In this document: positions 1-22,508 of the stretch, piece after piece
How the letters are laid out: each line of letters opens with the position of its first letter
Numbering within the stretch: the first letter of the stretch is position 1
NCBI RefSeq assembly: GCF_009831575.1
Contig: NZ_WUUT01000004.1
Coordinates: 1 to 40,136 of the forward strand
DNA length: 40,136 bases
From: Halovenus carboxidivorans
GTDB lineage: Archaea; Halobacteriota; Halobacteria; Halobacteriales; Haloarculaceae
Reading direction: 5' to 3'
The notes under the pieces: generated by a model
What the model saw: the letters and a program-made list of their open reading frames with translations, nothing else
Told to the model about the DNA's origin: nothing
Database searches by the model: none
Position numbers and translations under genes: made by a program

Positions 1-91
1 ATATAAATAGTGGTCAAGTGAAACACGGTCCCGGGAAACGTGCATCAAACCATTTCCCAATATACTGAACTGGAGGAGGGGATGCAACTCA

Positions 92-901
92 GTGTTTGAC
101 AAATCTACGGCTTCAAAAGGTGTACTACGGTCAGAAACGTATCTCAACAGCGGCTATCACCCGGACCAACCTATCGGCCGGGACTCAGAAATAGACCGGA
201 TAGCCGACGCAGTAAGACCTCTCACACACCGAAAGAAGCCTGAAAACCTGTTGATACACGGACCAGCCGGCGTCGGCAAAACCACCTGTGTAAAACATGT
301 ATTCGATCAGTTAGAGAACGAGACTTCTGCCAGATCCGTCTACATCAACTGCTGGCAGTACAACACCCGATCCAGTCTTCTCACACAGCTTCTGATCGAA
401 CTCGGGTATCCAGCACCACGGAAGGGAAAACCGGTAGACGAACTACTTTCAAAAATCCGGGAATGGCTTGACAAAAAGCGGAATGTAGCCGTCGCACTCG
501 ACGAATTTGACCAACTAGAACAACGCACCGAGATCATCTACGACCTCCAACTGCTCAACGAAGAAGCAGACAACCAAATCGGCATAGTCATGGTATCCAA
601 CCACCACCCATCCAAACTCAAACTCGATCCCAGAAGCAGAAGCCGACTAAACTGCCAAACACTCCAATTCAAACCCTACAACCAAGACCAACTCAAAAAC
701 ATCCTCGAAAAACGAGTCGAACAAGCCTTCCGCCCAGGCACAGTACCCGACGAAGTCATAGAAAAGATCGCCGAACAGGTAGCAGAAAACAGCGGCGACT
801 GCCGAGAAGCACTAGAAATACTGCTGAGAGCAGGAAGAGAAGCAGATTTAGAAGAAAAGAAACGTGTAAATCCGTCTGATCTACCTTTTGAGCAAAGATA
901 A
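92..901 (+). CDS. Orc1/Cdc6-like AAA+ ATPase lacking the winged-helix domain
   Basis: This 269-residue AAA+ protein resembles the ATPase part of archaeal Orc1/Cdc6 origin-binding initiators. The early segment GYHPDQPIGRDSEI (21-34) is the usual Orc1 entry motif. Walker A is GPAGVGKT (57-64), Walker B is VAVALDEFDQ (132-141), and a sensor-2-like GDCREALEIL lies near 235-244. Full-length Orc1/Cdc6 proteins run to about 400 residues and end in a DNA-binding winged helix, which is missing here. The GTG start at 92 is chosen because a GGAGGAGGGG run ends 10 nt before it; an ATG at 82 reaches a stop after five codons. Bases 560-900 use A- and C-ending codons heavily, unlike the next two genes. Origin binding would need a partner; a non-replicative ATPase role is also possible. 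Confidence 0.7.
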   Translation: MFDKSTASKGVLRSETYLNSGYHPDQPIGRDSEIDRIADAVRPLTHRKKPENLLIHGPAGVGKTTCVKHVFDQLENETSARSVYINCWQYNTRSSLLTQLLIELGYPAPRKGKPVDELLSKIREWLDKKRNVAVALDEFDQLEQRTEIIYDLQLLNEEADNQIGIVMVSNHHPSKLKLDPRSRSRLNCQTLQFKPYNQDQLKNILEKRVEQAFRPGTVPDEVIEKIAEQVAENSGDCREALEILLRAGREADLEEKKRVNPSDLPFEQR

Positions 902-955
902 TGTTATGAATATCCGGTCTATTATTTTGATCATAATCGAATGCGGTAGTAAAAT

Positions 956-2173
956 ATGCCTGATAATCTAATTCTCACGGTAGAAGAGGTTGTCGAGGAC
1001 TCTAACAGGCTCGTTGCAGCCTTTGGTAATCAGAATGAAATCATAGTGGAAAATGATATAGAAGAATCTGTATCCTCTGGCGATGCCGTACGCATCAATG
1101 AAGATGGAACGGAAGCTCTCGAATTAATTAAGGCTGGAGGTGTCGATACAGGGAATTTAGTGGGGGTAGTCAAACGGATTTCTTCTGAAAGAGTGGTCGT
1201 TCAGACTGACAATGCTCCACTTGGATTTGCTAATCCTGATGATGTTGATCTAGAGGTGGATGACACTGTGGAGATTGCCTCAGGAAGGATTCTTAGAGTG
1301 ATTGATGATATCGAGCCTCTATCATTTGATGAGGGAGCAGGTGACTCAGATGTGAGCGAGTATAGAACAGACAATCCAGAGAAATCATTTAGCGATATCG
1401 GTGGTCTGGATCGGATCAAGGAGCGTGTCCGGGAAGTCGTAGAATTGCCTCTTAGTAGGGCGGAGGAGTTTAGTGAGATAGGAGCAGAGGCTCCGACAGG
1501 AGTTCTTTTTTACGGGCCCCCTGGAACAGGTAAAACATTGTTTGCTCAAGCAGTAGCAAATAGTCTTGAAAATGGCACATTCTACAATATCAATGGTCCA
1601 GAAGTTCTTAGCAAGTGGTACGGGGAAAGTGAAAGGGAAATTCGCCGGATCTTCGAGGATGCTTCTGATCAAGAGGGGCCCTCTGTAATATTTATCGACG
1701 AAATTGAAAGTATAGCTTCCTCACGCGAGGGATCCCGCGAGGTCAACCGCCGGATTGTCACACAGCTATTGACTATGCTGGATGGATTTGATGATTTTGA
1801 GGATGTAATTGTCATTGCCGCAACCAACCGTCCTGAGGACATCGATCAAGCACTTAGAAGACCAGGTCGTTTTGATCGTGAAATAGAGTTTCCTTCGGAA
1901 CTACCCACTAGGGATCGAGTGGACATTCTCAAAACGATCTCTGAACAAGAGGATATGAAAATCAGCGACTCAGTCGATTTCGAGGAATATGGCGCTAAGG
2001 CAGAAGGATGGAGTGGGGCAGAATTAGAACGGTTGCTGAACGATGCCGCGATAATCGCTATTAAGGACGGAAAGACTACTATTATGTCTGAGGACTTGAA
2101 TTTAGCCTTCCGGCAAGTGGAACGCTCCAGACGAAATAAAAAGAAAACATCGAAAGGTGAAAGCAATGACTAA
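956..2173 (+). CDS. PAN/Cdc48-like single-domain AAA ATPase
   Basis: The protein has 405 residues: an N-terminal beta-rich region (about 1-125) with a segment near 90-118 resembling the OB domain of proteasomal ATPases, then one AAA module. Walker A is GPPGTGKT (187-194), a pore-loop-like KWYGESE follows (220-226), Walker B is VIFIDEIE (244-251), sensor 1 is in AATNRPED (288-295), and the arginine-finger segment is RRPGRFDR (301-308). These features define a hexameric unfoldase/remodeller. It has one AAA ring where Cdc48 has two, and ends KGESND without the HbYX tail used to dock on the 20S proteasome. Its last 8 bases overlap the next gene, so the two are probably made together. A role as remodelling partner of the downstream protein, perhaps in defence, is inference. 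Confidence 0.8.
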   Translation: MPDNLILTVEEVVEDSNRLVAAFGNQNEIIVENDIEESVSSGDAVRINEDGTEALELIKAGGVDTGNLVGVVKRISSERVVVQTDNAPLGFANPDDVDLEVDDTVEIASGRILRVIDDIEPLSFDEGAGDSDVSEYRTDNPEKSFSDIGGLDRIKERVREVVELPLSRAEEFSEIGAEAPTGVLFYGPPGTGKTLFAQAVANSLENGTFYNINGPEVLSKWYGESEREIRRIFEDASDQEGPSVIFIDEIESIASSREGSREVNRRIVTQLLTMLDGFDDFEDVIVIAATNRPEDIDQALRRPGRFDREIEFPSELPTRDRVDILKTISEQEDMKISDSVDFEEYGAKAEGWSGAELERLLNDAAIIAIKDGKTTIMSEDLNLAFRQVERSRRNKKKTSKGESND

Positions 2174-3401
2174 AATGCCGATGTGGCCATACAGTAAGCG
2201 TTCCCAAGAGAATACTGATGAGGATTTACCTCTAAGAGAGTTCGTCTATCTTGACGAAACGAGTGTTGTAAGTTTGCTGGCATCGCTTACACGGGAAGTT
2301 ACACAGGCAAGAACGGAAACTGACACAACTGAGGAACAAGAGGGTTGGGGAGCTAAAATTAAAGCTACGTTGCCGCTCATAGGTAGTGGGGTTGATGCAC
2401 ACCATTTGGAAATCGATAGAGATACTGAAGAGGTTGTTCGGAGGTCAGAAATTCAATCGAAGTTTGACGAGCTTTACAGCGAAACCTCCTCACAATTTGA
2501 ACTACAGAACGGCGAACAGGACGTCACTAGAGATCTCTCAGATGTCTCTGAAGGTGGTGTTGCTGAGGTAGAGGTTGAGTTTTCGGCTCATGAGCTTTTT
2601 CACTATTACAAGGCTTTTGAGTACCTGATCGATATGGCTGAAGGGGCGGAGTATGAGTTCAACGATGATGAAAAACAGATTGTGGAACTGTTGGGTTCTC
2701 TGTTTGGAGAACAGATTCCCGTTGTCGGTGAGGTCCATGGATATAGACTGGTAGAAGGGAAGCTCCGGCCAACAGAGACCGTCAGTGAAGATGAGTCTGA
2801 ACCGTTGCTGATCGTTGGGACTCTTGATCCAGATATGATGTGGCAGGAAGCCAGCCAATTCCTATTCGAGGATAATCAGTATACTGCGTACGTTCGAATT
2901 CCTGAACCAGAAATTCAAGATGAGTGGGATCCTCTGAAACTAACCCGAGTTATCAGAAGTATTTCTCCGCGTATTGGAGATCAGTTGAGTGTCGTTCTTG
3001 ATGGAGCTCTTCGACAGGCAAAGCAGGAAATCGACGAGACTTCAATAGAGAACGTCGCGGTGCAGGATGACTTGGTTAATGATCGTCATCACAATTATTT
3101 TGATTATATCGAAGAGGAGCATGAAATCACAGTCTCTGATGAGTATAGAGCTCAAATCGTAGAAGATGCATACGAAAGTAACAATTCGCCAGAGGATGCG
3201 TCAGATTATGAGATCGAATCAGAAGTTCTGAAGGACGCAACAGATTCTATTGAAGAAGATAAGGATGTTGAGTTGGATAGAGAGAGCTTGTCTGACTTTC
3301 GGTCAGATATTCTTGATCAGCAACAGAATGGGCCAGTTCCGGGTAGCAGTGAGGAGGATCAGAACTATCTGGAGGTTAGCTTTGTAGCTATATATTGGTG
3401 A
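2166..3401 (+). CDS. DUF6414-like protein, partner of the AAA ATPase
   Basis: The protein has 411 residues from the ATG at 2166. The start region LREFVYLDETSVVSLLASL (about 24-42) recalls the opening of DUF6414 family proteins; that match is from memory. A second block near 205-300 includes LLIVGTLDPDMMW and a hydrophobic/acidic alternation, and the last 100 residues are highly acidic. No catalytic motif, signal peptide or membrane segment is visible. An in-frame GTG at 2157 is possible, but the AAAGGTGA run at 2154-2160 sits at ideal ribosome-binding distance from the ATG. The start lies inside the end of the AAA ATPase gene (8-nt overlap), so translation is coupled. The function is not known. 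Location at the end of an integrated element suggests accessory cargo. Confidence 0.7.
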   Translation: MTKMPMWPYSKRSQENTDEDLPLREFVYLDETSVVSLLASLTREVTQARTETDTTEEQEGWGAKIKATLPLIGSGVDAHHLEIDRDTEEVVRRSEIQSKFDELYSETSSQFELQNGEQDVTRDLSDVSEGGVAEVEVEFSAHELFHYYKAFEYLIDMAEGAEYEFNDDEKQIVELLGSLFGEQIPVVGEVHGYRLVEGKLRPTETVSEDESEPLLIVGTLDPDMMWQEASQFLFEDNQYTAYVRIPEPEIQDEWDPLKLTRVIRSISPRIGDQLSVVLDGALRQAKQEIDETSIENVAVQDDLVNDRHHNYFDYIEEEHEITVSDEYRAQIVEDAYESNNSPEDASDYEIESEVLKDATDSIEEDKDVELDRESLSDFRSDILDQQQNGPVPGSSEEDQNYLEVSFVAIYW

Positions 3402-3787
3402 GTTTATACCCTTGCGAGCCGTTCAATTAGTGTTATCTCTCAGGCCGAAAGCCTGCTTACCCGGTGTTTGAAGGGGGTGCGTGATAATACTAAGTTGACG
3501 AAGAGACCGGCCAACACCGGAAAAAACAGGAAAGTCCAAGACGCAACCGTGGTTCGGAAAACGGAAGAGATTCCTGCTGCCTGAGGACGGACAAAAATCG
3601 GTTTCCAGGCCACGACTTATATCAGTGTCTTGGTAAGGACGAGAGCCCGGGTTCAAATCCCGGCCTAGGCTCTTTTCACGATCCACGTACCCGACAGATC
3701 TTCGCGTGTCTCCGAGGTGGGACGCTGGCCACGAGAGGATCAGTCACTCACCGTCCCGGTGACGACGAAGTACCGGTCGAACGGGAC
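3402..3787. other. Non-coding stretch carrying the element boundary
   Basis: No convincing gene lies here. The left part (3402-3628) is the terminal non-coding DNA of the integrated element, 3629-3671 is the tRNA-Thr remnant, and 3672-3787 is core DNA with a clear rise in GC. A minus-strand frame across 3423-3686 runs straight through the tRNA fragment and is not believed. Confidence 0.6.
3629..3671 (+). repeat. att remnant: 3' half of tRNA-Thr(GGT)
   Basis: The sequence reads as the anticodon loop TTGGTAA (3630-3636, anticodon GGT), the 3' anticodon-stem strand, a variable loop, a T arm with stem CCGGG/CCCGG around loop TTCAAAT (3647-3663), a 3' acceptor strand CCTAGGC (3664-3670) and discriminator T (3671), as in haloarchaeal tRNA-Thr. 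Upstream bases do not pair: GTGTC cannot form the anticodon stem with GGACG, and no GCCTAGG 5' acceptor strand occurs in the preceding 100 bases. It is therefore a 3' fragment beginning at the anticodon loop, the classic attachment-site footprint of archaeal tyrosine integrases. Confidence 0.75.
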
Positions 3788-4040
3788 TCACCTTTGACTC
3801 TCCGTCGCGTGGACGAACGTCCAGTCATCCGTGTCGACTCCCTCGGTCCGTTTGTCGACGCTGTCCTCGACCTCCGACGCGCTGTCGACCCGCGGCATGT
3901 CGTTTGCGCGCTCCTCTGCGGAGCGTTTCTCGACCGTCTCCGGGCTACTGTCCGACCCGTCTCCGTCGACGTTTGGCGATATCGTGCCTCGTCGTGAAAC
4001 CGTTCTCTTGTACGCCCCTGCCTGCCTCGATAGCGTCGAC
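3788..4040 (-). CDS. Small acidic hypothetical protein (doubtful)
   Basis: A possible 83-residue protein starts MSTLSRQAGAYKRTV and has an acidic, Ser/Asp/Glu-rich remainder, the composition expected of haloarchaeal proteins. The competing frames on both strands are Arg/Pro-rich and look like shadows. An upstream in-frame start at 4081 would add 14 cysteine/arginine-containing residues that look less natural. No domain is recognised and no ribosome-binding site is obvious. It lies between the element boundary and the CBS gene and may be a decayed gene. Confidence 0.35.
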
Positions 4041-4105
4041 ATACGTTCCCACCGAACTCGGCAACACGCGGAGTAGCCCAACCGACTGGTACCTCCGGCG
4101 TCCGT

Positions 4106-4525
4106 TCAGGACTCTGAAAGTCTGATAGGGTCGCCATCCCAGCGGATATCGAGGCGGTGACGGGGGAGATACGGCGCGAGATGATCGGCCGTAACGAATC
4201 CCTCGTACCCGTTGTCGACGATCGGAAGCACCGAGATGCCTGCGTCCCGCATCCTGTCGGCGGCGAGACCGACCGGTAGCGTCGGGTCGGCGGTCTGTAC
4301 TGGTGTCGACATGTACGCCTCGACGGGTGGGTTCTCACCACCCTCTGCGACGGTAGCCACGATGTCCGATTCGGTCACGACGCCGATCAACGTCTGACTC
4401 TCTACGACGAACAACGCCGGAATCTCCGGATCCCGGAGCCGTGCAGCCGCGCTCGCCGTCGTCTCGGTCGGTCCGATCAGCGGTTCCCGCTCGACCATTG
4501 CCGACGACACTGGCACGTCGATCAT
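4106..4525 (-). CDS. CBS-domain pair protein
   Basis: This 139-residue protein is essentially two CBS motifs in tandem, a Bateman module that binds adenosine nucleotides. The first covers about residues 3-60 (hallmark segment PALFVVESQTLIGVVTESDI) and the second about 66-120 (ISVLPIVDNGYEGFVTADHL). No other domain is attached, so it probably acts as a stand-alone energy or ligand sensor or as a subunit of another protein. The start at 4525 is preceded by AT-rich sequence (TTTACGTA and TTGAATAT) that could supply a TATA element, consistent with a leaderless or short-leader transcript. It is divergent from the MscS gene. The partner is unknown. Confidence 0.85.
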   Translation of the reverse strand: MIDVPVSSAMVEREPLIGPTETTASAAARLRDPEIPALFVVESQTLIGVVTESDIVATVAEGGENPPVEAYMSTPVQTADPTLPVGLAADRMRDAGISVLPIVDNGYEGFVTADHLAPYLPRHRLDIRWDGDPIRLSES

Positions 4526-4709
4526 ATATTCAAATGTTTCGCAATCTACGTAAATCTGTGGTGTGTGTCACGTTCAGGGCCATATTACCTAGTTATTTTG
4601 ATCTCAATAGCACAGAGATACCAGAATAAACTTTTCTGTCCGGGCCGTCTCCCGCCGGGCGGCCGGACCAGACGCCAAGCTTGATTTCCCTGCCGTCGGT
4701 TGATCTGGT

Positions 4710-5561
4710 ATGTCCGGAATCGACATCGCAGCACTGGGTGCGAAATACGCCGGCCTTCTCAGTCAACTGGCCGAGTTCGCACTCGTGACTGTGCTCCTGT
4801 ACCTCCCGGCTCGGTTCGTCCTGCGGCCGCTGGTCAGCCACGGTCTCGCACGGTGGAACCTGAACCGGACGCTCGAACAGACCATCGAGAAGGCACTGGG
4901 TGTCGTCACGGTGCTCGTCGCGGTCGTAGCCGGTGCGTGGGCGGCCGGTTTCGCGGGGTTACTCGGCGGTTCCGCACTCTTTTTCGCCGCGCTGACGCTT
5001 GCAATCGGCTTCGCGGCACAGGACGTGCTCTCGAATTTCGTCGCGGGCATCTTCATCGTCCAGGACCCGAACTTCAACATCGACGACTGGATCGAGTGGG
5101 AGGACAAAGCCGGGTTCATCGACGATATCGGCTTCCGCGTGACGCGCATCCGAACGTTCGACAACGAGACGGTGACAGTCCCGAACACCGTGCTGGCGAC
5201 GACCCCCGTCACGAATCGGATGAGCAACGAGACGCTACGGATCTCCTACACGGTCGGCATCGGCTACGCCGACGACATCGATACCGCGACGCGGATTCTG
5301 CTGGACGCGGCCGCCGACCACGCCGACATCCTCGACGACCCGGAACCGTCCGTTCGCGTCGCCGAACTCGCAGACAGTGCGATCCTGCTCCAGTCTCGCT
5401 TCTGGATCGCCGACCCGGACCGCGAGGACTTCTCCGTCACTCGTTCCGAGTACATCCAGGAGACGAGCGAGCGGTTCCGCGAGGCGGGAATCGATCTCAG
5501 CACGACGACACAGCACCAGTTGTCGGGCAACCTCAGCGTCGACACCGACCCGCGGGAGTGA
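4710..5561 (+). CDS. MscS-family mechanosensitive ion channel
   Basis: The protein has 283 residues. Three hydrophobic segments (about 20-40, 63-82 and 84-112) are followed by the MscS beta domain. The pore helix region reads LGGSALFFAALTLAIGFAAQDVLSNFVAGIF, with the small-residue packing and QDVLSNFVAGIFI signature of MscS TM3 and its exit. DDWIEW, IDDIGFRVTRIRTFDNETVTVPN then match the cytoplasmic beta domain, and a C-terminal alpha/beta part follows. Such channels open on membrane tension and release solutes during hypo-osmotic shock, relevant for a salt-loving cell. It converges with the dehydrogenase operon, with only 48 bases between the stop codons. Confidence 0.92.
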   Translation: MSGIDIAALGAKYAGLLSQLAEFALVTVLLYLPARFVLRPLVSHGLARWNLNRTLEQTIEKALGVVTVLVAVVAGAWAAGFAGLLGGSALFFAALTLAIGFAAQDVLSNFVAGIFIVQDPNFNIDDWIEWEDKAGFIDDIGFRVTRIRTFDNETVTVPNTVLATTPVTNRMSNETLRISYTVGIGYADDIDTATRILLDAAADHADILDDPEPSVRVAELADSAILLQSRFWIADPDREDFSVTRSEYIQETSERFREAGIDLSTTTQHQLSGNLSVDTDPRE

Positions 5562-5609
5562 GCACGCGAGCGCCGCTCCGACGAGTGTAGGGATCGTTTC
5601 GGGGGCGAC

Positions 5610-6398
5610 TCAGACGAACTGCGACGCCGCTTCGAGATTTCCGGCGAGCGTTTCGAGAAACCGCGCACCGTCGGCGCCGTCGACGACCCGGTGATCGAAG
5701 CTCAGATCCAGCGGGAGTTCCCGACGGAACGTGACGCCGCCGTCGCCGTCAGGCATAGCTCGCTCGTCGAGTCGCCCGACCGCGAGAATCGCAATCTCAG
5801 GCGGGTTGATAATCGGCGTGAACGAATCGACTCCCAAGGGTCCGAGATTCGTCACGGTGAACGTCCCGTTTCTGAAGTCGCTCATCGAATACTCACCGGC
5901 CCGAACGCGGTCGACCAGCGACCGCCGCTGTCGGTGAATCGTCTCCAGCGACTTCGAGGCGACATCCCCGAGCACCGGTGTGACCAGGCCGCTGTCGATA
6001 TCGACCGCGAGACCGATGTTGTGCTCCTCGTAGAGGCGGTGGGTCCCGTCCTCGTAGGTTGCGTTGAACTCCGGATGCTCCGCGAGCGTCTCCGAGAGCG
6101 CACACAACAGAAGATCGACGAACGAGATGCTCTCGATCTCCATTGCCGCCTGCTCTGTCGCTTCGAGCAGTGGCTCCGCGTTCACCTGCCGACTCAGCGT
6201 CACGTGCACAGCCTCTCGATAACTCTCGGAGAGTCGTTTCGCGATGGTCTTGCGCATCCGGTCGAGTGAACGCTGCTCGCGGAGTGTCCGCTCGACGGGG
6301 TCGGCTCGACCGCCGTCGGCCTGCAACCGAGTGCGATCGGTCCGACACCGGGCGCTGTCTGCCCGATACGACCGGCGTGGGAGTTCGTCGTCAGTCAT
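5610..6398 (-). CDS. 2-oxoacid dehydrogenase E2, catalytic domain only
   Basis: These 262 residues cover the acyltransferase core of a 2-oxoacid dehydrogenase E2. RMRKTIAKRLSES (near 45) is the usual entry to the core and SFDHRVVDGADGARFL near the C terminus holds the catalytic His and Asp of the DHRxxDG motif. Normal E2 proteins have a lipoyl domain and a subunit-binding domain in front; here the first 45 residues are a short Arg-rich lead with neither, and the lipoyl domain is a separate upstream gene. The start at 6398 overlaps the lipoyl gene's stop (8 nt). Together with E1alpha, E1beta and the lipoyl protein it forms a complex oxidatively decarboxylating a 2-oxoacid or acetoin; no E3 gene is in view. 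Substrate cannot be assigned. Confidence 0.88.
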   Translation of the reverse strand: MTDDELPRRSYRADSARCRTDRTRLQADGGRADPVERTLREQRSLDRMRKTIAKRLSESYREAVHVTLSRQVNAEPLLEATEQAAMEIESISFVDLLLCALSETLAEHPEFNATYEDGTHRLYEEHNIGLAVDIDSGLVTPVLGDVASKSLETIHRQRRSLVDRVRAGEYSMSDFRNGTFTVTNLGPLGVDSFTPIINPPEIAILAVGRLDERAMPDGDGGVTFRRELPLDLSFDHRVVDGADGARFLETLAGNLEAASQFV

Positions 6399-6651
6399 AC
6401 TCTCCGATGTACGCGAGTGTCTCTCCGCGCTCGAACTCGCCGTCCTCCGGGACGACGATTTCGGTGACCGTCCCACCCGCTGGCGCGGCGATATCGACGT
6501 CGACCTTTTCGACCTGAATCTCACAGATGACTTCCCCCTCGTCGACGGTCGTCCCCTCACCGACGAACCAGTTGATGACGACGCCTTCGTCGTCGTCGGC
6601 ATCCTCCGGCCAGTACTCGTCGACGTTGATCGCCACTCGGTCGCCGCTCAT
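6391..6651 (-). CDS. Free-standing lipoyl-domain protein
   Basis: The 86-residue protein is a complete biotinyl/lipoyl attachment domain. The lipoylated lysine is K49 in EIQVEKVDVDIAAP, and the second half carries the mirror-image hairpin GTVTEIVVPEDGEFERGETLAYI. It would act as the swinging arm carrying the acyl group from E1 to the E2 core. In most organisms this domain is fused to E2; here the two genes overlap by 8 nt but remain separate. The start overlaps the E1beta stop codon (ATGA), so all four genes are translationally coupled. The haloarchaeal acidity is strong (WPEDADDDEG). Confidence 0.88.
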   Translation of the reverse strand: MSGDRVAINVDEYWPEDADDDEGVVINWFVGEGTTVDEGEVICEIQVEKVDVDIAAPAGGTVTEIVVPEDGEFERGETLAYIGEYD

Positions 6652-7673
6652 GGCTCTGTCGCCCGGATCGCCTCCTGGATGTCCTCGCTGTCGGGAACGA
6701 CCTCGTTTTCCATCGGTCGGGCGTACGGAATCGGGATGTCCGGTATCGCGACCCGCTCGACGGCCTCGACGCTCCCGGGGTCGTCCTCAACGACCCGGGT
6801 GATTACCTCGCCGGTGACCCCGAAGGACTGGTAGTCCTCGTCGACGGCGACGAGACGCCCGGTCTTGTCGACGGACTCGCGGATCGTCTCCTCGTCCAGC
6901 GGGACCAGCGAGCGGAGATCGATTACCTCGACGTCGATCCCCTCCTCGGCGAGTCGCTCCGCGGCATCGAGCGCACGGTGGACGTGCAGACCGAGGGTGA
7001 CGACGGTGACATCGTCGCCCTCGCGTTTCACGTCGGCACTGCCGAACGGAATCGTGTACTCCGTCTCGGGGACTGCGGTCTTGGGGCCGTCCGGCGCGGG
7101 CAGCCAGCCGATTCCCATCAGTCGCTTGTGGAACATGTAGGCCACGGGGTCGTCGTCGCGGATGGCGTTGTGCATCAGCCCCTTCGCGTCGTAGGCGGTC
7201 GACGGGACGACCACCTTCATTCCGGGGACGTGCGCGAAGGTGCCGTACAGCGTCTGTGAGTGTTGTGCGGCGTCGTTGTACGTCCCCCCGACGGCGGCGG
7301 TCAACACCATCGGGACGTTGACCGCCCCGCCGCTCATGTAGGTGTTTTTCGCCATCTGGTTGTAGATCTGGTCCATCGCGACGCCGAAGAAGTCGACGAA
7401 CATCAACTCCGCGATGGGCCGCATCCCCTCCTGGGCGGCGCCGACCGCCGCGCCGATGTAACTCGTCTCGCTGATCGGAACGTCCATGATCCGGTCCCGG
7501 CCGAACTCCTCGAGCAAGCCCTCCGTGGAGTCGAAGATGCCGCCGTAGTCCGCGACATCCTCTCCCATGTAGAAGACCTCCTCGTTTTCGCGCATCTCTG
7601 TCGCGATGGCCTCGACCATCGCGTCGCTCATCGTTCGCGTTCGCTCGACCGTCTGTCGCTGTTGTTGTGCCAT
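6648..7673 (-). CDS. 2-oxoacid/acetoin dehydrogenase E1 beta subunit
   Basis: The 341-residue protein matches E1beta subunits along its length: an early MSDAMVEAIATEMRENEEVFYMGEDVADYGG segment (helix, then the GEDV contact with thiamine diphosphate), AELMFVDFFGVAMDQIYNQMAK in the middle, and the C-terminal transketolase-like domain with VIDLRSLVPLDEETI and VDEDYQSFGVTGEV. It pairs with E1alpha to form the alpha2beta2 decarboxylase. Its ATG overlaps the E1alpha stop and its stop overlaps the lipoyl-protein start, both as ATGA. The overall look is closest to the acetoin/branched-chain type of E1, but the substrate is not decidable here. Confidence 0.92.
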   Translation of the reverse strand: MAQQQRQTVERTRTMSDAMVEAIATEMRENEEVFYMGEDVADYGGIFDSTEGLLEEFGRDRIMDVPISETSYIGAAVGAAQEGMRPIAELMFVDFFGVAMDQIYNQMAKNTYMSGGAVNVPMVLTAAVGGTYNDAAQHSQTLYGTFAHVPGMKVVVPSTAYDAKGLMHNAIRDDDPVAYMFHKRLMGIGWLPAPDGPKTAVPETEYTIPFGSADVKREGDDVTVVTLGLHVHRALDAAERLAEEGIDVEVIDLRSLVPLDEETIRESVDKTGRLVAVDEDYQSFGVTGEVITRVVEDDPGSVEAVERVAIPDIPIPYARPMENEVVPDSEDIQEAIRATEP

Positions 7674-8719
7674 CAGTCGTCACCTCCTGCGAGATCGAAG
7701 TTCGGTTCTGTGTCCGTCACGCCCGAGGGTGGGTTCACCCACATGTCGTCGTAGGCGTCCTCGGGGTCCGGTTTCGGCTGGTCTTTGGCCCACTCGATGG
7801 CCTCCTCGACACGGCTCTCCGCGCGCTCGCGGATCTCCGCCAGCGTCTCGTCGTCGACGCCGTGGCTGCGCAGATCCGCCGCGAGACGTTCGATGGAGTC
7901 CCGGCGCCGGTGAGCCTCCTGATCCGCCTCGGATCGGTATGTCTCGGGGTCGCCCATGAAGTGGCCCATCCGCCGGTGGACCTGCACCTCGATGACCGTC
8001 GGTCCGTTGCCGTCTCTGGCACGCCCGACGGCCTCCCGGGCGGCCTCGGACACCGCGAGCACGTCGTCCTGATCGACTCGGATCCCCGGCATATCGAAGC
8101 CGTCCGCCCGACGGGAGCCGTCCTGGGAGTCCGCGACCCGCTCTTTGGGCATGCTGATCGCCCAGTCGTTGTCCTCGATGATGAACACGACGGGCATGTC
8201 GTGGACGCTCGCGAAGTTCAGCGATTCGAGAAAGGCCCCCTGGCTGATCGCTCCCTCCCCGAGGAAGGCGACGCCGACGCTGTCCTCGTTTCGCTTCTGT
8301 GCCGTCAGACCCGCACCGACCGCCGGCGGAACCCCCTCGGCGATGATCCCGCTACAGGCGAAGTTCACGTCGGGATCGAACAGGTGCATATGTCCCCCCT
8401 TCCCGGAGGAGAGGCCGGTCTCGCGGCCGAATATCTCGGCGGTCATCCGCTTGAGATCGACCCCCTTCGCGATGGCGATGTGGTGCGGGCGATGCGGTGC
8501 CGTCACGGTATCTTCGTCGCGGAGGTGGTGACAGACGCCGACCGCGGCGGCCTCCTGACCCGCCGCGAGGTGCAACTCGCCCGGAATCTGGCCGGCGCTG
8601 ATGTCGAATCCGGGTGTTTTCCCCTCCATATACTCCTCCTGCAACCGCTCCTCGTACACTCGTGCCGTCACCATGTCCTCGTAGAATGATTTCATTTGTG
8701 TGGTGCTGACGCTTGTCAT
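7673..8719 (-). CDS. 2-oxoacid/acetoin dehydrogenase E1 alpha subunit
   Basis: A 348-residue thiamine diphosphate-dependent E1alpha. FYEDMVTARVYEERL opens the fold, SSGKGGHMHLFDPD is the conserved HxH-type contact region, and the TPP motif reads GEGAISQG...EDNDWAIS, with GEG instead of the commoner GDG. The loop RRADGFDMPGIRVDQDD and RMGHFMGDPETYR follow as in AcoA/PdhA. The start at 8719 is chosen because homologs begin about ten residues before FYxxM and a GGGGGG run lies 5 nt upstream; an ATG at 8755 would add 12 residues. It is the first gene of the operon; the AT-rich stretch around 8756-8810 probably holds the promoter. Confidence 0.9.
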   Translation of the reverse strand: MTSVSTTQMKSFYEDMVTARVYEERLQEEYMEGKTPGFDISAGQIPGELHLAAGQEAAAVGVCHHLRDEDTVTAPHRPHHIAIAKGVDLKRMTAEIFGRETGLSSGKGGHMHLFDPDVNFACSGIIAEGVPPAVGAGLTAQKRNEDSVGVAFLGEGAISQGAFLESLNFASVHDMPVVFIIEDNDWAISMPKERVADSQDGSRRADGFDMPGIRVDQDDVLAVSEAAREAVGRARDGNGPTVIEVQVHRRMGHFMGDPETYRSEADQEAHRRRDSIERLAADLRSHGVDDETLAEIRERAESRVEEAIEWAKDQPKPDPEDAYDDMWVNPPSGVTDTEPNFDLAGGDD

Positions 8720-8983
8720 GAAACCCCCCAATCGTTGTTGGTTCGAATCCGACATAAAATTTGAGGGTGTCAAAAACCGATAGTACAACCGGTTTATTTC
8801 GTGTTTCGTGATGAACGCCAGCTGATGATCTACCTGCGGTGGTCGCTTCGTCTCCGGTTTCGTGTGTCCTGTTTCGTCTCGACTACTTCGCGCCGGGCGT
8901 CTCTTCGAGGCTTGATTGCGGACATTACAGTGGAAGATCTATTAAATCGAACAATATTTTGAATCGCGGGAAACGACACATCT

Positions 8984-9178
8984 ATGCCCTCCACCGAAGA
9001 CACCCACAGTAGCGGACCGAGTGAAAGAAGGCTCAGTGTGATTCTCTACGTCCTGGGTATCGTTACCGTTCTTTTCCTGACTTTCATGTTGCTGATTTAC
9101 GAAGGCCCCAACGCGCTCAGGATTATCCGGATCGGGTGGGTCGTCTCGATAGTGTACCTGGTTTCTAAGCTCGCATAG
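8984..9178 (+). CDS. Small two-segment membrane protein
   Basis: This 64-residue protein has a hydrophilic N terminus (MPSTEDTHSSGPSERR) and two hydrophobic stretches, about 18-42 (VILYVLGIVTVLFLTFMLLIY) and 49-63. No family is recognised. AT-rich TCTATTAAAT and AATATTTTGA motifs lie 20-45 bases before the ATG, fitting an archaeal TATA region for a short leader. It stands alone between the divergent dehydrogenase operon and the convergent lipoprotein gene. Confidence 0.6.
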   Translation: MPSTEDTHSSGPSERRLSVILYVLGIVTVLFLTFMLLIYEGPNALRIIRIGWVVSIVYLVSKLA

Positions 9179-9233
9179 GTGGGTTCGTCTTCCAACAGGA
9201 CACGCTGGTGCTGTCTCATTTGTTGGCGGGTCG

Positions 9234-9284
9234 GCCGCCAGTCACCCTGAGATATTGTGGATGCTATGGTCTCGGACTGGCGGC
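9234..9284. repeat. Inverted repeat in intergenic DNA
   Basis: GCCGCCAGTC (9234-9243) and its exact reverse complement GACTGGCGGC (9275-9284) are separated by 31 bases, between the converging small membrane protein and lipoprotein genes. It is too loosely spaced for a normal terminator hairpin and could be a protein-binding site or a trace of a lost insertion sequence. Confidence 0.4.
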
Positions 9285-9408
9285 TTGCGGTGACGGTCTC
9301 ACACAGATTGGTGAGAGTGGCCCAACAGTTCTGGCGTATTCCTGCGTAAAAAGATAAACATCGCCGTTCGAATTCAGCTGCAACCAGGGTTACCGACTGG
9401 CTCAGTCA

Positions 9409-10023
9409 CTATTCCACTCCCAGAATACGGGCGACATCTCTGGCGTCACGCACGTTAATGGTATTCGCCTCTGACTCCAGGCTATTACTCTGGTCAATCG
9501 CTTCGTTCGCACTCTCAATATTCCCCTCACGAGAGTATTTCGCAGCCTGTTCTGCTTGCCACATCGCCTGTTCCATCATGGATGCATGTTCCTCTGCATC
9601 ACTACAGATTTGCTGGACACGTTCATTGTTTATTTCATACGCGAGATCAAGTGCTTGGGCAAATCCTGATGCAGCGCTTGAGAAGTGCTGTTGCGCTGTA
9701 CTTGCTTCGCTCTCTGCTTGACCGTAATTCTCGGAGTTCATTGCGTTGACTGCGTTATTTCGCGCAGAAATACCGTTATTCAAGCTACCGAGCGCCTCGT
9801 TATATCTGTCAGCCAACCTCTCCCGAGTCCGCCGGTTCTTACTGTTCCCATCGTCGGACTCCCCACCAGAATTTCCTCGCTGGCCCACGCTCGGGGTGGT
9901 TGTATTTGTTTGATCTTCTTCACCCTCGTTCTTTCCACTCTCTTCTATCCAATTAGAACACCCCGAGAGCGCAACCGCAATCGCAGTTCCTGACCCAATC
10001 AGGAGGGATCGTCGTGAAGACAT
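9409..10023 (-). CDS. Tat-exported lipoprotein of unknown function
   Basis: A 204-residue protein opens with a twin-arginine signal, SSRRSLLIG, a hydrophobic core and the lipobox ALSGC (cysteine at 22), so it should be folded in the cytoplasm, exported by Tat and anchored by a lipid, as is usual in haloarchaea. After a Gly/Ser/Asn-rich acidic linker, residues 75-195 form long helices rich in Ala, Glu and Gln (NAMNSENYGQAESEAS, AEQAAKYSREGNIESA), which could be a helical repeat bundle. No enzyme motif is seen. An AT-rich TTAATTTTAAG about 35 bases upstream on the minus strand is a likely TATA region. Confidence 0.8.
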   Translation of the reverse strand: MSSRRSLLIGSGTAIAVALSGCSNWIEESGKNEGEEDQTNTTTPSVGQRGNSGGESDDGNSKNRRTRERLADRYNEALGSLNNGISARNNAVNAMNSENYGQAESEASTAQQHFSSAASGFAQALDLAYEINNERVQQICSDAEEHASMMEQAMWQAEQAAKYSREGNIESANEAIDQSNSLESEANTINVRDARDVARILGVE

Positions 10024-10412
10024 ACAGACAGACGGCGTCGGTACGACCTTAAAATTAACTCTACTTTAACATTAGATAACAACTACACTACAAGCATTTT
10101 GGATTTTTCAATTTAAATATAATGTCACCTGAACCCGTAGTGAGGTTGCACGGTAATGAGAACGGTGACCGGTCTGTACGACTCTGTTATTTCCCTGTTC
10201 TTCGTGACCTGAACCCGGACCCAGACGTGCTCGCTTCGCTGCGCGCGACCGGTGGGGATTCAGATCCACACGTCCGCAGAGCAGACGCTCGGCTCGCCAT
10301 TTTTATTCGTTCAGAAACGGACCCGCCGGGACTGAGCAAAACCGAAGGTTTTGCGAAGGTCGGCGAGGCCACTCACTTCCTTCCGTCGCTTCGCTCCGTC
10401 AGTCTTCGTGGC

Positions 10413-10474
10413 CTCGCCGGGATTTGAACCCGATTGCAAGACTCGCTACGCTCGTCTTGCGTGATTCAAATCCC
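10413..10474. repeat. Decayed att copy forming an imperfect palindrome
   Basis: Bases 10413-10431 match 19 consecutive bases of attL (10515-10533). The same block also forms an inverted repeat: GGGATTTGAA (10419-10428) pairs with TTCAAATCCC (10465-10474) and GCAAGAC (10436-10442) with GTCTTGC (10454-10460) around an 11-base loop. This suggests an older attachment site, or an integrase accessory-binding site made from T-arm-like sequence. Confidence 0.5.
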
Positions 10475-10509
10475 GTCTCGACCATTCTCGCTCGCAAGAA
10501 CTCGCTCCG

Positions 10510-10543
10510 ATGGACTCGCCGGGATTTGAACCCGGGGCCTCTT
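10510..10543 (-). repeat. attL: displaced 3' end of tRNA-Ala
   Basis: This copy is identical over 34 bases to 24297-24330. Read on the minus strand it covers the end of the anticodon stem, variable loop, whole T arm and 3' acceptor strand of tRNA-Ala. Sequence diverges at once on both sides, and no 5' tRNA half is present. Confidence 0.9.
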
Positions 10544-10594
10544 GCGCCGCGACAGGGCCTCCTACCGCCGATTTGGGGGAGGCCGTCGCGGCGC
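10544..10594. repeat. Strong hairpin abutting attL
   Basis: GCGCCGCGAC (10544-10553) pairs with GTCGCGGCGC (10585-10594) and GGCCTCC (10556-10562) with GGAGGCC (10578-10584), giving a 17-bp GC-rich stem with one 2-base bulge. It begins at the very first base after the att repeat and lies before the integrase promoter. It could be an integrase arm site, a barrier to transcription from outside, or an integrase autoregulation site. Confidence 0.6.
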
Positions 10595-10682
10595 GTGGGG
10601 TGCGAAGGACCGCCGCGGCTGCCAAGTTGGGTTGAGCGAAGTCCGACGGTGCGCACCCTCACGCGCGTTCGGTGGGAAAACC

Positions 10683-11690
10683 ATGAACGCAACACCACCA
10701 CACGAAGCCAAGAACCGCTACCTGAAAGACAAGTCCACCGACGTTACCGACTCGACTCTCTCGAACTACGAAACCACGTTGAACGTATTCTGCGGCTGGC
10801 TCACCGATGAGGCAGATGTGGATACACTCAATACGCTAAGCAGCGACGATACACAGAAATTCAAAGAATGGCGGCTCGAACGGGTGAAAACCATCACTCT
10901 CAAGAGCGACATGACCTGCATCAAGGGCTTTATCCGGTTCTGCGAACACATCAATGCCGTACCGGAGGGGATGCACAAGTTGGTTCGTGTGCCGAAACCG
11001 AGCCGCGAAGACGAGGTGTCCAGCGATCTAATCACCAGCGAGGAAGCTAGCGAGATCTTGGACTACCTCGATACCCACGAATACGCGAGCCTCCGTCACG
11101 TCATCTTCCGTACCCTGTGGAAGACCGGGATGCGGCGGAGTTCGCTGTACGCGCTTGATGTAGACGACTTCGATGACGGATCAAAGCCGGTACTCCGCCT
11201 GCGTCATCGGCCTGATACCGGCACGCCGCTCAAGAATAAGCGCCGAGGCGAGCGGGATGTGCGTCTTGACCGAGAGACAGCAGATGTGATAGCCGACTTC
11301 CTCAAGCACAATCACCCCAGCGGGACCGATCAACACGGACGGACGCCGCTACTCATGTCCACACAGGGGAAACGATGCAAGCCTTCCACCATCCAACGGA
11401 ACATCTACACCGTCACTCGGCCCTGCCACTACACCGGCGAGTGTCCCATGGGCCGCGACCTCGATGAGTGCGAGGCAACATCCTACAATACAGCGAGCAA
11501 GTGTCCGGGTTCGGTCGGCCCACACGCCCTTCGGCGCGGGTACGTCACCGAGGCATTGAACGCCGGTCAACCACGTGACGTAACTGCCGACCGAGTAGAC
11601 ATGACTACTGAGGTATTGAACAAGCACTACGATCACGCGACGAAAGAGGAGCGGATGGAACGGCGAGAAGACTACCTCGTTGATGTATAG
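10683..11690 (+). CDS. Tyrosine recombinase (island integrase)
   Basis: A 335-residue integrase of the phage/XerCD type. Residues 20-95 form a SAM-like core-binding domain (DSTLSNYETTLNVFCGWL). The catalytic domain has Arg151 in KTGMRRSSLYAL, the HxxR pair His281/Arg284 in GPHALRRGYVTEAL, and the nucleophile Tyr316 in NKHYDHAT. Between them are four cysteines (248, 254, 263, 274) that could bind zinc, an insert familiar in haloarchaeal integrases. The open frame extends back to 10542 but would run through the att hairpin, so the ATG at 10683 is preferred. It lies just inside attL and probably inserts and excises the island at tRNA-Ala. Confidence 0.9.
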   Translation: MNATPPHEAKNRYLKDKSTDVTDSTLSNYETTLNVFCGWLTDEADVDTLNTLSSDDTQKFKEWRLERVKTITLKSDMTCIKGFIRFCEHINAVPEGMHKLVRVPKPSREDEVSSDLITSEEASEILDYLDTHEYASLRHVIFRTLWKTGMRRSSLYALDVDDFDDGSKPVLRLRHRPDTGTPLKNKRRGERDVRLDRETADVIADFLKHNHPSGTDQHGRTPLLMSTQGKRCKPSTIQRNIYTVTRPCHYTGECPMGRDLDECEATSYNTASKCPGSVGPHALRRGYVTEALNAGQPRDVTADRVDMTTEVLNKHYDHATKEERMERREDYLVDV

Positions 11691-11821
11691 CGACTTCGAG
11701 TGAACATCAAGAGTTATTAGACACCACCGCATACACCAAAATGAGCGTCTTTGAGAGAAGACGTGATTTCAGTCCCTCACAGGGGATTGACTTTTACACT
11801 CATTAGTCGCAACTACTCCTC

Positions 11822-12892
11822 TTATCCCTCAAAATACTCAATTGCTTCGTCTCCAACAATTAACTCGACATCCTTATTCAGCTGAGATAGACGGGTTAAT
11901 TTATCTGTTTCTCTGTCCAGGGCAACCAGTACATCCCCTTCCGAAATATAGTGTCGGTCGATTTTCATGTCAAGCGATTTGACACAGCCTCGCTTCCGAT
12001 AGGCATAATCACAGGCATACCGCATGGCGTCAAGAGATTCCATTTCTTTTTTACCCACGTTCCCTCGATCTATATATATGGTTGGCTTCGGGTAGTGTTG
12101 GGAGCGTCGGATTGTTTCATTTCGGCTCGGAATCATACGCTCAAACTCGTACTCTTGTGATGTACTCAATCCATCTGCGTCGATCCAAGCATCTGAATTA
12201 CTCCCATCATCATAATACTCCCGCAGGTGTTCATAGATATTCTGTGCGAACAATGGATAGACTTCCTGCTCTAAATATCCCATAATAATATCTGCGGCAG
12301 AAAGTAGCGGGTACGTTTGATCTCCGTTGGGAACAATATTTAGGTGCTCTGATTGATCGCCCAATTCTGACCACATTTTATTATATTTCCCAGTGAAGTC
12401 ATCAGTCAATATATTATTTCTATTTTCTGTGGGTCTACTACCATCATTGTCAAGATACTGCCATATTGACACAAGATTATAATACGAAGATAGTTTCCCA
12501 GTCAGCAGTTCTTGAGCGTTTATTCGGTTATGTGAATGGTCGTCATCTTTGTAGATGTCAACCCACGAAGGTTCAAAGTATGTTTCTGTAATCTGTATAG
12601 TTTCAACAGAATTTATATCTAGTAGAGAAGTCGCAATATCAACCCGAGCTTCATCAATCCTCCAATCGGCGACCCATCTGTTAATATCTTTATTTTTTAT
12701 GACCTCGAATGGGACTCGGATATTGTATTTTTCTTTCTTTTCTGATATGACCTCTTTATAACTTTCATCGAAGTCATCAATATCCTTCACAGCGACTGCA
12801 ACAGAAAGAAGGCTGGCTCCTCCGGGCCGTTCACTGTCAAATCTCACTACCAAGGAATCCGAAGCAACCCAGCCATTGTTTGTCATACACAT
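11822..12892 (-). CDS. Unknown island protein, possibly DUF3800/RNase H-like
   Basis: The 356-residue protein is not recognised with confidence. Two places recall DUF3800-type RNase H-fold proteins: the opening LVVRFDSERPGGASLLSVAVAV (14-35, a strand with an acidic residue) and the late segment YPLLSAADIIMGYLEQEVY (194-212), like the Q/AADLIAG helix ending those proteins. The middle is acidic and low in recognisable motifs; residues 300-356 include a possible separate small domain (YISEGDVLVALDRETDK). The start at 12892 has a TATA-like ATTTATACTTATT about 20-30 bases upstream, fitting a leaderless message; 12886 is an alternative. It is AT-rich relative to the core and transcribed toward the integrase. 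A nuclease role is only a guess. Confidence 0.7.
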   Translation of the reverse strand: MCMTNNGWVASDSLVVRFDSERPGGASLLSVAVAVKDIDDFDESYKEVISEKKEKYNIRVPFEVIKNKDINRWVADWRIDEARVDIATSLLDINSVETIQITETYFEPSWVDIYKDDDHSHNRINAQELLTGKLSSYYNLVSIWQYLDNDGSRPTENRNNILTDDFTGKYNKMWSELGDQSEHLNIVPNGDQTYPLLSAADIIMGYLEQEVYPLFAQNIYEHLREYYDDGSNSDAWIDADGLSTSQEYEFERMIPSRNETIRRSQHYPKPTIYIDRGNVGKKEMESLDAMRYACDYAYRKRGCVKSLDMKIDRHYISEGDVLVALDRETDKLTRLSQLNKDVELIVGDEAIEYFEG

Positions 12893-12905
12893 TGTTTGAT
12901 GCTAA

Positions 12906-12920
12906 ATAAGTATAAATTAT
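12906..12920 (-). promoter_or_regulatory. Probable TATA element for the unknown gene at 11822-12892
   Basis: On the minus strand the sequence ATAATTTATACTTAT lies about 15-28 bases before the ATG at 12892. With the usual archaeal TATA-to-start distance of about 25 bases the transcript would begin at or next to the ATG. Confidence 0.4.
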
Positions 12921-13004
12921 GGGGAGGATAATGATCATGGATTCAGTAGAAGTTCGATCCCGTAACACGGCCAAGATTTCTTAACCACTGGGGTCTGGTT
13001 CGAA

Positions 13005-13619
13005 TCACTGATCAACTCCTCGACCGACCTCCTGAATAGCATCTAATGCCCGGCTCATTTTTTCCCTCACATCTTTGCCTACGCTGATCGTGTCTTGTGC
13101 GGCCCTTTCGTATCTTCGCGGACCAAAATCGGCCTCATATGGATATAACAGTCGTACTATTTGTACACCATCCCAAATTGGCCCATCCTCTGAATTCTTA
13201 TTTTCCAAACTCAGATTCTGTATACGACAATCTGTGTGCGTTATGTAGGAGTCTGCCTCCTCCAGAGATTTCCTCGCTTCTTCAATGCCAATATCGTCAA
13301 TGCGCTCATATGCAACCTTCTTGTGTAAGTCTTCGTCGCCTATTGTAGTCTCATCAATCTCATACCTCTCTATATGGCCACGAAGTAGTTGGTTTTCCCG
13401 CTTATATGCTGCTATCAGTTCATTACTGAGACGATATTCGTATTGTATCCTGAAATGTCGAGTATACGGCTCTGCTAATAGATCTATATACTCATCACCT
13501 CGATGTAGTGTGAATTTCAGACCAGATTCACTTTTTCTCTGAGCATATATCGAGTCGCCAGCACCCAGAGCATAAGCCAATACTTCTCCGACCGCATCAT
13601 AATATTCGTCAGCAGCCAT
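13005..13619 (-). CDS. Unknown island protein
   Basis: A 204-residue acidic protein with no motif that I recognise. The first 80 residues look like a compact alpha/beta fold (EYYDAVGEVLAYALGAG, FTLHRGDEYIDLLAEPYTRHFRIQYEYRL). Residues 75-135 are helical and charged, followed by ENKNSEDGPIWDGVQIVRLLYPYEADFGPRRYERAAQDTI. No signal or membrane segment is seen. It is on the same strand as the 11822-12892 gene with 112 bases between, and divergent from the next membrane protein. Like its neighbour it is AT-rich, which suggests they arrived together. Confidence 0.7.
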   Translation of the reverse strand: MAADEYYDAVGEVLAYALGAGDSIYAQRKSESGLKFTLHRGDEYIDLLAEPYTRHFRIQYEYRLSNELIAAYKRENQLLRGHIERYEIDETTIGDEDLHKKVAYERIDDIGIEEARKSLEEADSYITHTDCRIQNLSLENKNSEDGPIWDGVQIVRLLYPYEADFGPRRYERAAQDTISVGKDVREKMSRALDAIQEVGRGVDQ

Positions 13620-13736
13620 TCGTAGGCGTATACTGCGGGAAATTTTATTAAATTATTCACCACGATGAGAATCTCTGTTACTAAAATCAACTAACATTTA
13701 TAGTATCTGTAGTAACGTGACGGTAATCTACTGATC

Positions 13737-14252
13737 ATGAAAATTTTAATGTTGGCGTCTTATTCGCGAAATATGGCTGATGAAAATAATGAAGGTGATA
13801 AGGATAGTAATCCAGAAACCAGCGAAAGCGAAAATTCAGAATTTAATGTATTTACAGGGTTAGAGGACGCGGGTGATGACCGAAGTGGATCTCCGCCACA
13901 CGCACCAGAGAATGATAATGCGCCGACAACTGGTCAAATGGCAAACGAACAGCCTGACTTGAACAAAATCCTTGCAAACCTTGAGGATATAACCGACTTA
14001 ATAAGAGAATACTTTGAACAATCCCGAGAAAATAAGCGAGTAGAAAATGAACGAAGACAGCGTTACTTAAAACACCAAAGGAAAGTCATCTTTACGGCTG
14101 CGATTACATTTATTGTCGTTATTGGGATCTCGGCCCTGATGACATTCTACAATGCTCTCAGTGGAGATGCTTTCACTTTTGTGCTGGGGACACTGTTTGG
14201 TGCTATTCTCACTTTCTTACAGAATATGCTGGGTGCGAATAGTGAGGACTAA
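13737..14252 (+). CDS. Acidic coiled-coil protein with two C-terminal membrane helices
   Basis: The 171-residue protein has a disordered, acidic N terminus (about 12-75), a charged helix likely to form a coiled coil (76-117, with EYFEQSRENKRVENERRQRYLKH split over its length), and two hydrophobic segments (118-138 and 146-166) joined by a short loop containing SGDAF. Cytoplasmic domain plus two-helix hairpin is a layout shared by many small membrane effectors, but no family is recognised. The start at 13737 lies about 36 bases after a TTTATAG box (13697-13703); Met13 at 13773 is an alternative start that would drop MKILMLASYSRN. It is divergent from the unknown gene at 13005-13619. Confidence 0.65.
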   Translation: MKILMLASYSRNMADENNEGDKDSNPETSESENSEFNVFTGLEDAGDDRSGSPPHAPENDNAPTTGQMANEQPDLNKILANLEDITDLIREYFEQSRENKRVENERRQRYLKHQRKVIFTAAITFIVVIGISALMTFYNALSGDAFTFVLGTLFGAILTFLQNMLGANSED

Positions 14253-14477
14253 CTTGCGTTGATATCCTTAATTCACAGCAAGTTCGTACCGTCTTATTCT
14301 GGAATACGACTAACCCACCGATGACGAACCGAATAAAATTCCAGAGAAGCCATCCCATCCTCTTGAATAATATCCACCAAACTCACGGGAATTGATACCG
14401 GTCCTGAAATTATATTAACAGTGAGTTAGAATCTACCTGTCGTCCCACCGTCGCGGTAGCCTATACCGATAACAACC

Positions 14478-15287
14478 ATGGATATTGAATTACCATCTGA
14501 CAACGATCAAGAAGATGATTCCGTGTTTGGTGGCCGTATTGATGCCTATGAGGCGTACTGGCTGTACGTTGACGGCGTGAGATACGTCGGTCCCGCATTA
14601 GAGCAGTCTGAAGCCACAAAACAGGACGAGGATCGTTCTCCGCTCGCTTGCCACTATAATCACTTCTATGAAAAGAAGGAAGAATACAAGGATAGGTGTA
14701 AGGATCTTCCAGGGTCCCTTCCTAAATACAAAGATCATTTTGAAGAACCGCGGGGTGATGTCCGAAAGATTCCAGAACACCGGCTGTCTGATTTAGGACT
14801 CGGTCAGGAGGGTGATGATCCAATTTGGCTTCCCCCAGAGTACGAGTTGCCGGATGTATGGGAAAATGATCTCGATGAAATGGACGAGCCGGAGCTTCGG
14901 GACCTTGTCGAGAAACTTCGAGAGGAAAAGAAAGAATTGAAACAAGAACGCGATGATCTGCGCGAGAAATTAAAACAGGTTCGGCAGTCGTTGACGAGTT
15001 TTCTTGATGATGAGTCGATGAATAAGAGCGACGGTGATTCGGCAGCCTACACCTGCAATAATTGTGGCCGGGCATTTGAGTCCCGAGCAGCTCGGAACGG
15101 TCACAAACCCCACTGCGATGGCGTGTCTTCTGGCAATCGTGCTTCGGATGATAACGCGTCCCGGCAAGACTTGGCTCAACTTGCTGAGGACCTACCCGAA
15201 ATATTGGAAGAACAATCGGACACAGATCATGAATCCGCTGAGGAGGAGCTGAAGAATCTAAATCATCTGCTTCAAGGTAGCCTGTAA
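14478..15287 (+). CDS. Coiled-coil and C2H2-type zinc-finger protein
   Basis: A 269-residue protein of unknown role. The N-terminal 130 residues include aromatic-rich AYEAYWLYVDGVRYVGPALEQSE and PIWLPPEYELPDVWEN. A strongly charged helix (136-175) should form a coiled coil, followed by a zinc finger: Cys193, Cys196, His209 and His212 or Cys213 in YTCNNCGRAF...RNGHKPHC. The acidic C-terminal helix suggests a protein-interaction tail. It ends 85 bases before hsdM and shares its strand, so it may be co-transcribed with the RM genes. It might be an accessory or control protein of that system, or independent cargo. Confidence 0.7.
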   Translation: MDIELPSDNDQEDDSVFGGRIDAYEAYWLYVDGVRYVGPALEQSEATKQDEDRSPLACHYNHFYEKKEEYKDRCKDLPGSLPKYKDHFEEPRGDVRKIPEHRLSDLGLGQEGDDPIWLPPEYELPDVWENDLDEMDEPELRDLVEKLREEKKELKQERDDLREKLKQVRQSLTSFLDDESMNKSDGDSAAYTCNNCGRAFESRAARNGHKPHCDGVSSGNRASDDNASRQDLAQLAEDLPEILEEQSDTDHESAEEELKNLNHLLQGSL

Positions 15288-15372
15288 ACGCGTTCTTATT
15301 ACATCTATCTGTCAGGGAGGCTAATAGACACTCACCGTAGCAAATAACATCATCCGGCCAGATTGGACGGAC

Positions 15373-21924: not shown

Positions 21925-22450
21925 GTTAACATTGTAAAATAGCGACTTTCCTGGACTGGAGAGTGAACGCCGAATTTCAGGCTATATATAGAAATTCTAA
22001 ACAGCCTGCTACCAAAGATCGAAACTTTGACCGAACCCTCATGTAATAACTCCCGTGTGGTTTTTAATCTCGCTGAGAGCGCTAAGGACGCTTTCTGAGA
22101 GGTTTCTATCTGGCATAGTGTTTCCCCCTCGCTCAGTCATTAATCCTCATAGGGCTTATCTCAGGCTTGTTTTGGCCGTTTGCAGAGTGTAGGGCCGGTC
22201 TGACAATAATGGGGGGTACTGGAATCTGTCAAGATCAGTAGGGGCCCTCTTGTGCCAAAGCTATCTGAATTTGAAAACCAGTGGGGATCAATTCTAACGG
22301 TATTTGCATTGAAGCGGTAACTCCTGTAGGTGTCTGTATCTGGAAGGTCCCCAACTTGGTGCATACACACTGGTGAGTCTGGTGTAATCTACACAGTCAG
22401 TATAACTTATAAAGTGTACACACCGATGAGGCCGAGAGACTTTACACATG

Positions 22451-22508
22451 TCTAACTGGTACCGTTTCATTGGTACACATCTAACTGATACCGTGTTATT
22501 GGTACTGG
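22451..22508. repeat. Two 29-bp tandem repeats with internal dyads
   Basis: Unit 1 (22451-22479) and unit 2 (22480-22508) both start TCTAACTG and share ATTGGTAC; 23 of 29 positions agree. Unit 1 carries GTACC-8 bases-GGTAC (22459-22476) and unit 2 ATACC-8 bases-GGTAC, so each unit is itself a dyad. This iteron-like layout suggests a DNA-binding protein dimer on each unit. Confidence 0.55.

Follow-up and report, generated by a model that had tools for sequence, protein, structure and literature searches.

With a probability of about 0.93, the short stretch at positions 3629-3671 of the window (the whole stretch of DNA that was analyzed, i.e., the first 40,136 bases of the 364,794-bp contig C4, with haloarchaeal gene content) is the attR site of an integrative, ICE-like element that resides in a haloarchaeal tRNA-Thr(GGT) gene and is completed by the tail of the same contig. 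This reading is based on the att sites at the two ends, the GC borders, the integrase beside attL, complete elements elsewhere that are collinear with it, and the alleles of the T-arm. The integration is of the ordinary tRNA-targeted kind. An ICE-like family in the tRNA-Thr(GGT) of haloarchaea is now defined by both ends and a conserved gene order.

The tRNA-Thr(GGT) fragment and its counterpart on contig C4

The fragment (CTTGGTAAGGACGAGAGCCCGGGTTCAAATCCCGGCCTAGGCT, forward strand) comprises nucleotides 30-72 of tRNA-Thr(GGT); it starts with the final base of the 5' anticodon stem, ends at the discriminator and lacks the 5' half. A degenerate form of this 43-mer matched once in the 40,136-nt window and never in 100 dinucleotide shuffles. 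ARAGORN called no tRNA at 3629-3671, and the Rfam tRNA model skipped the 5' half and reached 21.6 bits, which is under its cut-off of 29 bits. The GC content is 44-46% to the left of the fragment and 59-64% to the right of it. A preliminary description had already pointed out the 3' remnant, its missing pairing 5' half and the GC shift; all three are borne out.

The genome is a 3.25-Mb draft in 10 contigs and 98.3% complete. The sole other place in it that matches the fragment (with up to 3 of 35 bases different) is C4:328345, inside an intact tRNA-Thr(GGT) at C4:328316-328388. This attL gene lies on the same strand as the fragment and is the only intact tRNA-Thr(GGT) of the genome. A tyrosine integrase gene begins 187 bp downstream of it (C4:328575-329708; 377 aa; PF00589, 81 bits). 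At the tRNA the GC content falls from ~66% to 45-54% and stays low through the contig end, as it does in window positions 1-3628. Across 3629-3677, attL and attR are identical in 46 of 50 positions. If the 5' half at attL with its host flank is joined to the fragment with its own host flank, a full canonical tRNA-Thr is reconstructed. As in other tRNA-targeted elements, a tRNA fragment stands in direct repeat at the far end, on the same strand as the intact gene. The intact 377-aa gene at attL differs from the split integrase of the SSV type. The intact tRNA and its adjacent integrase support the earlier proposal that the fragment marks the end of such an element. The surroundings had been pictured differently in part. 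An intact tRNA-Thr(GGT) does exist, but it lies at the other end of C4 and not left of the window, because the window begins at base 1 of this contig. It shares 40 of the 43 bases rather than all of them, since attL and attR carry different T-arm alleles. An integrase was found as well; it is whole and located at attL, not split at attR.

The same association is found elsewhere: in GTDB contigs, 10 of 10 relatives of the integrase are encoded directly downstream of an intact tRNA-Thr(GGT), with hosts named as Halobellus, Halonotius, Halobaculum, Halorubrum, and Haloquadratum, and no viral contigs carrying the integrase were found. The DUF7114 gene upstream of the tRNA-Thr is conserved in most relatives compared. 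The right flank is not conserved beside the tRNA-Thr in relatives, where gene order is scrambled, including 400 kb of one chromosome; no empty site with the same flanks was found in them. As a separate observation, one assembly of Haloquadratum walsbyi J07HQW2 (L171, L180, L182) holds three full-looking tRNA-Thr(GGT) genes with the same upstream flank, plus one fragment.

The element is divided between the two ends of C4. Its right-hand end covers 1-3628 of the window (forward strand; GC 44-50%), and the remainder lies outside the window at C4:328388-364794. In the assembly of C4 these parts stand at opposite contig ends and are joined by homology alone; no overlap of at least 15 bp was found between head and tail of C4, nor with the ends of other contigs. 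The homology is provided by five complete elements of 32-56 kb, each on a single contig with both att sites: in the relative G019 (48.3 kb), QH_7_66_36 (48.1 kb), Halonotius pteroides (32.4 kb), Halobellus clavatus (56.1 kb), and Halobaculum saliterrae (36.1 kb). The genes of the C4 tail plus head are collinear with all five, and against these homologous elements the two gene sets are complementary, with no duplication. In addition, the Orc1/Cdc6 genes at the two C4 ends have counterparts that are neighbors, 0.1-2.1 kb apart, in every one of the five, and therefore the tail and head of C4 represent one element. It therefore measures 40,078 bp plus the unassembled gap between the Orc genes, i.e., at least 40.1 kb.

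It is improbable that the fragment ends a different tRNA-Thr(GGT) element, of which the assembly lacks the left part and the intact tRNA, and that the tRNA and integrase at 328 kb of C4 belong to a second one. The start of the window at a contig end, the genome completeness of 98.3% and the three differing T-arm bases would agree with such a scenario. However, there is a single tRNA-Thr(GGT) in the genome, the head and tail genes are neighbors in all five homologous elements and form complementary sets in which nothing is duplicated, and an allele difference is expected from integration and is found elsewhere between the two ends of one and the same element. The single N of the contig (C4:40137), just past the window, was considered as a scaffold mis-join too, and this was rejected: the N falls within the reading frame of an HTH-type gene and is a base ambiguity, not a gap.

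Strand exchange and the arm at attR

The T-arm of the intact tRNA (GACCCCGGATTCAAATTCCGG) and that of the fragment (GAGCCCGGGTTCAAATCCCGG) differ in three bases. The attL and attR alleles diverge after the core in this genome, in QH_7_66_36 and in H. pteroides, and in the latter two the same two T-arm alleles sit at opposite ends. Since the alleles differ between the ends, integration swaps the 3' half of the host tRNA gene for that of the element and displaces the host's. The first allele difference further implies that the strands are exchanged 5' of it, within the 16-bp stretch CTTGGTAAGGACGAGA (3629-3644, forward strand), which is identical in attL and attR ahead of the T-arm divergence and which we infer to be the core.

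In the circular form of the element, attP would consist of the left arm, the tRNA-Thr 3' end and the right arm ahead of the integrase gene. The integrase would recombine attP with the chromosomal tRNA gene in this core, which lies in the anticodon loop and 3' anticodon stem. Host 5' half and element 3' half would then restore a working tRNA gene (attL, C4:328316-328388), while the host's own 3' half would be displaced to the far end (attR, 3629-3671). The CGTC/GACG bases that flank the core in attP may act as core half-sites. We likewise infer the exact cleavage points, the ability of the element to excise and its conjugative transfer.

A conserved non-coding arm of the element (3435-3628, forward strand; ~190 bp) directly abuts attR. 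Its mean column identity is 76% in an alignment of eight elements, and its DNA is 79-85% identical to that of the five complete ones. It holds an inverted copy of core-side sequence, CCAAGACG at ~3536-3543, about 90 bp away. Folding of the arm's own copy gives a z of -0.9, no improvement over shuffled sequence; some relatives do fold better (z between -2.7 and -5.1), and covarying pairs are few. Because of the score of its own copy and the few covarying pairs, the arm is as likely to be inverted-repeat DNA as structured RNA. In a plasmid of Halobaculum limi, the two arms flank a single decayed tRNA 3' end beside a broken integrase, and this site looks like a decayed, unintegrated attP.

The arm also bears on two further explanations of the fragment. 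Split tRNAs occur in some archaea, and the fragment could belong to a tRNA-Thr that is split or contains an intron, with a 5' half encoded elsewhere and attached by splicing or in trans. We consider this very improbable: a complete, single-piece tRNA-Thr(GGT) is present in the genome, and the bases upstream of the fragment are element arm and not leader, as the sequence homologous to the AGTGT side recurs as element arm in related elements. The preliminary description had held that an intact cloverleaf with an intron covering the 5' half would speak against a remnant. Such a version was looked for at 3629 and is absent, the upstream AGTGT being unpaired with the 3' anticodon strand, and the remnant reading stands. 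That the fragment is a chance match or a tRNA pseudogene in decay, with no relation to an element, has hardly any probability, although a lone 3' half would be compatible with decay too; against it stand zero matches in 100 shuffles, the GC border at the fragment and an arm that directly abuts the fragment in eight elements.

Gene content and comparison with known systems

Three genes of the element lie in the window, all on the forward strand. The first encodes an Orc1/Cdc6-like protein (92-901; 269 aa; TIGR02928 with 209 bits, over its cut-off; Pfam Cdc6_lid) that is 68-77% identical to its counterparts in all five homologous elements; its divergent Orc1/Cdc6 partner is found on the reverse strand at C4:363704-364711. 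It is followed by genes for an IetA-like AAA+ ATPase (956-2173; Pfam AAA; PADLOC IetA, 1.6e-34) and a DUF6414 protein (2157-3401; PF19952, 138 bits). Homologues of the latter two adjoin each other in the H. saliterrae element, near the integrase. The ATPase gene is likely defense cargo and the DUF6414 protein its likely partner, which makes the pair (956-3401) a candidate two-gene defense unit. Other cargo comprises an LmuB (Lamassu)-like gene with two small neighbors (C4:356853-359555; L064, ~4.9-7.6 kb), which among the five elements compared is common only to that of H. saliterrae.

Two components of ICEs were found, namely a VirB4-type ATPase (C4:339107-341287; VirB4 models at 6e-39, below the models' own cut-offs) and a VirD4/T4CP-like coupling protein (C4:336223-338133; TraG-D_C and TrwB above the Pfam cut-offs). 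These VirB4- and VirD4-like proteins somewhat resemble a terminase profile. Also in the shared backbone are the Orc pair, a second tyrosine recombinase, a third ATPase that is weakly similar to FtsK/VirD4, a DUF932 protein, and several proteins whose family is unknown. None of the element proteins scanned matched a relaxase model. The element resembles an ICE, and we name it ICE-like rather than ICE because no relaxase was recognized. Conserved backbone genes of unknown family are natural candidates for the missing relaxase function.

Like ICEs (PMC3158045), the element combines an integrase, att sites, VirB4-like and VirD4-like ATPases and cargo; in contrast to them it is without a recognizable relaxase and has its own Orc1/Cdc6 pair. 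An earlier survey found VirB4 and coupling proteins in archaea but very few known relaxases, and this rarity is why few archaeal ICEs were recognized there (PMC3158045). With tRNA islands found by the Islander principle (PMC4383910), the element shares a regenerated tRNA at one end, a displaced 3' fragment at the other and an integrase inside, but it spans contig ends and would be missed by an automatic search of linear contigs. Its integrase is unsplit with SAM-like N-terminal and Phage_integrase domains and restores the target gene, as do the classical (type II) archaeal integrases related to XerA, pNOB8, and SNJ2 (PMC8371274), its putative family. The SNJ2 site measures 14 nt (PMC8371274), whereas the shared site here extends over ~45-50 bp from the anticodon loop on. 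Haloviruses of the HSTV-4/HRTV-10 group possess an integrase that is 42% identical over 96% of its length; however, no virion genes were recognized among the element proteins scanned. The H. limi plasmid (NZ_CP120469) has an attP-like site and encodes an 87% identical integrase in pieces and a 74% identical Orc-like protein; in contrast to the element, these are located in a plasmid of 429 kb, the integrase is broken and the att sites are decayed.

Contig C4 and the neighboring tRNA-Ala(CGC) element

EF-1alpha and four tRNA genes are located on contig C4. The pair of the element, at which both contig ends fall, comprises the only clear Orc1/Cdc6 genes there. Contig C7 has an orc gene and identical ORB-type repeats at both ends, as if circular, and contig C1 starts beside an orc gene, so that contig ends tend to lie at origins. 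A continuous element would turn C4 into a closed molecule, and a closed 365-kb replicon is the most straightforward way to read the assembly. Along the 325 kb of host DNA on C4, the sign of the GC skew is constant in 48 of 60 windows; this is consistent with a segment of a single replichore and speaks against a circle that has long been independent. This uniform skew and the draft status leave room for a mis-assembly inside C4. It is a tentative and rather doubtful proposition that C4 is a closed ~365-kb replicon with EF-1alpha and single-copy tRNAs, whose origin is supplied by the Orc pair of the ICE-like element, i.e., a natural second chromosome. If C4 were a separate replicon, part of a chromosome would here have obtained its origin from an integrated element in nature, comparable to the Haloferax volcanii chromosome that was split in the laboratory (PMC6063281).

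To the right of attR, host DNA (3672-10510) encodes a CBS-domain protein, an MscS channel and a 2-oxoacid dehydrogenase operon, identified by NCBIfam and an MscS search. Its GC content is mostly 0.58-0.68 and amounts to 0.50-0.54 over 8.5-10.5 kb. The closest plasmid relatives of the dehydrogenase operon (5610-8700) are located on Halobaculum and Haladaptatus megaplasmids. Beyond this DNA follows a complete tRNA-Ala(CGC) element (10511-24297), which has an integrase of its own and encodes a type I restriction-modification system (15373-21209). Its attR is a tRNA-Ala(CGC) 3' fragment (10511-10546, reverse strand), in which the last 33 nt of tRNA-Ala are identical, and its attL is the intact tRNA-Ala(CGC) called by ARAGORN (24298-24369, reverse strand). 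The tyrosine integrase (PF00589) occupies 10542-11690 on the forward strand as limited by the reading frame, with a likely start near 10683. With 6.8 kb from 3671 to 10511, the claim that two elements directed at different tRNAs (Thr and Ala(CGC)) lie less than 7 kb apart is confirmed. Beside the attR of the tRNA-Ala element, a second, weaker tRNA-Ala-like 3' end is found at 10409-10433, possibly an older remnant.
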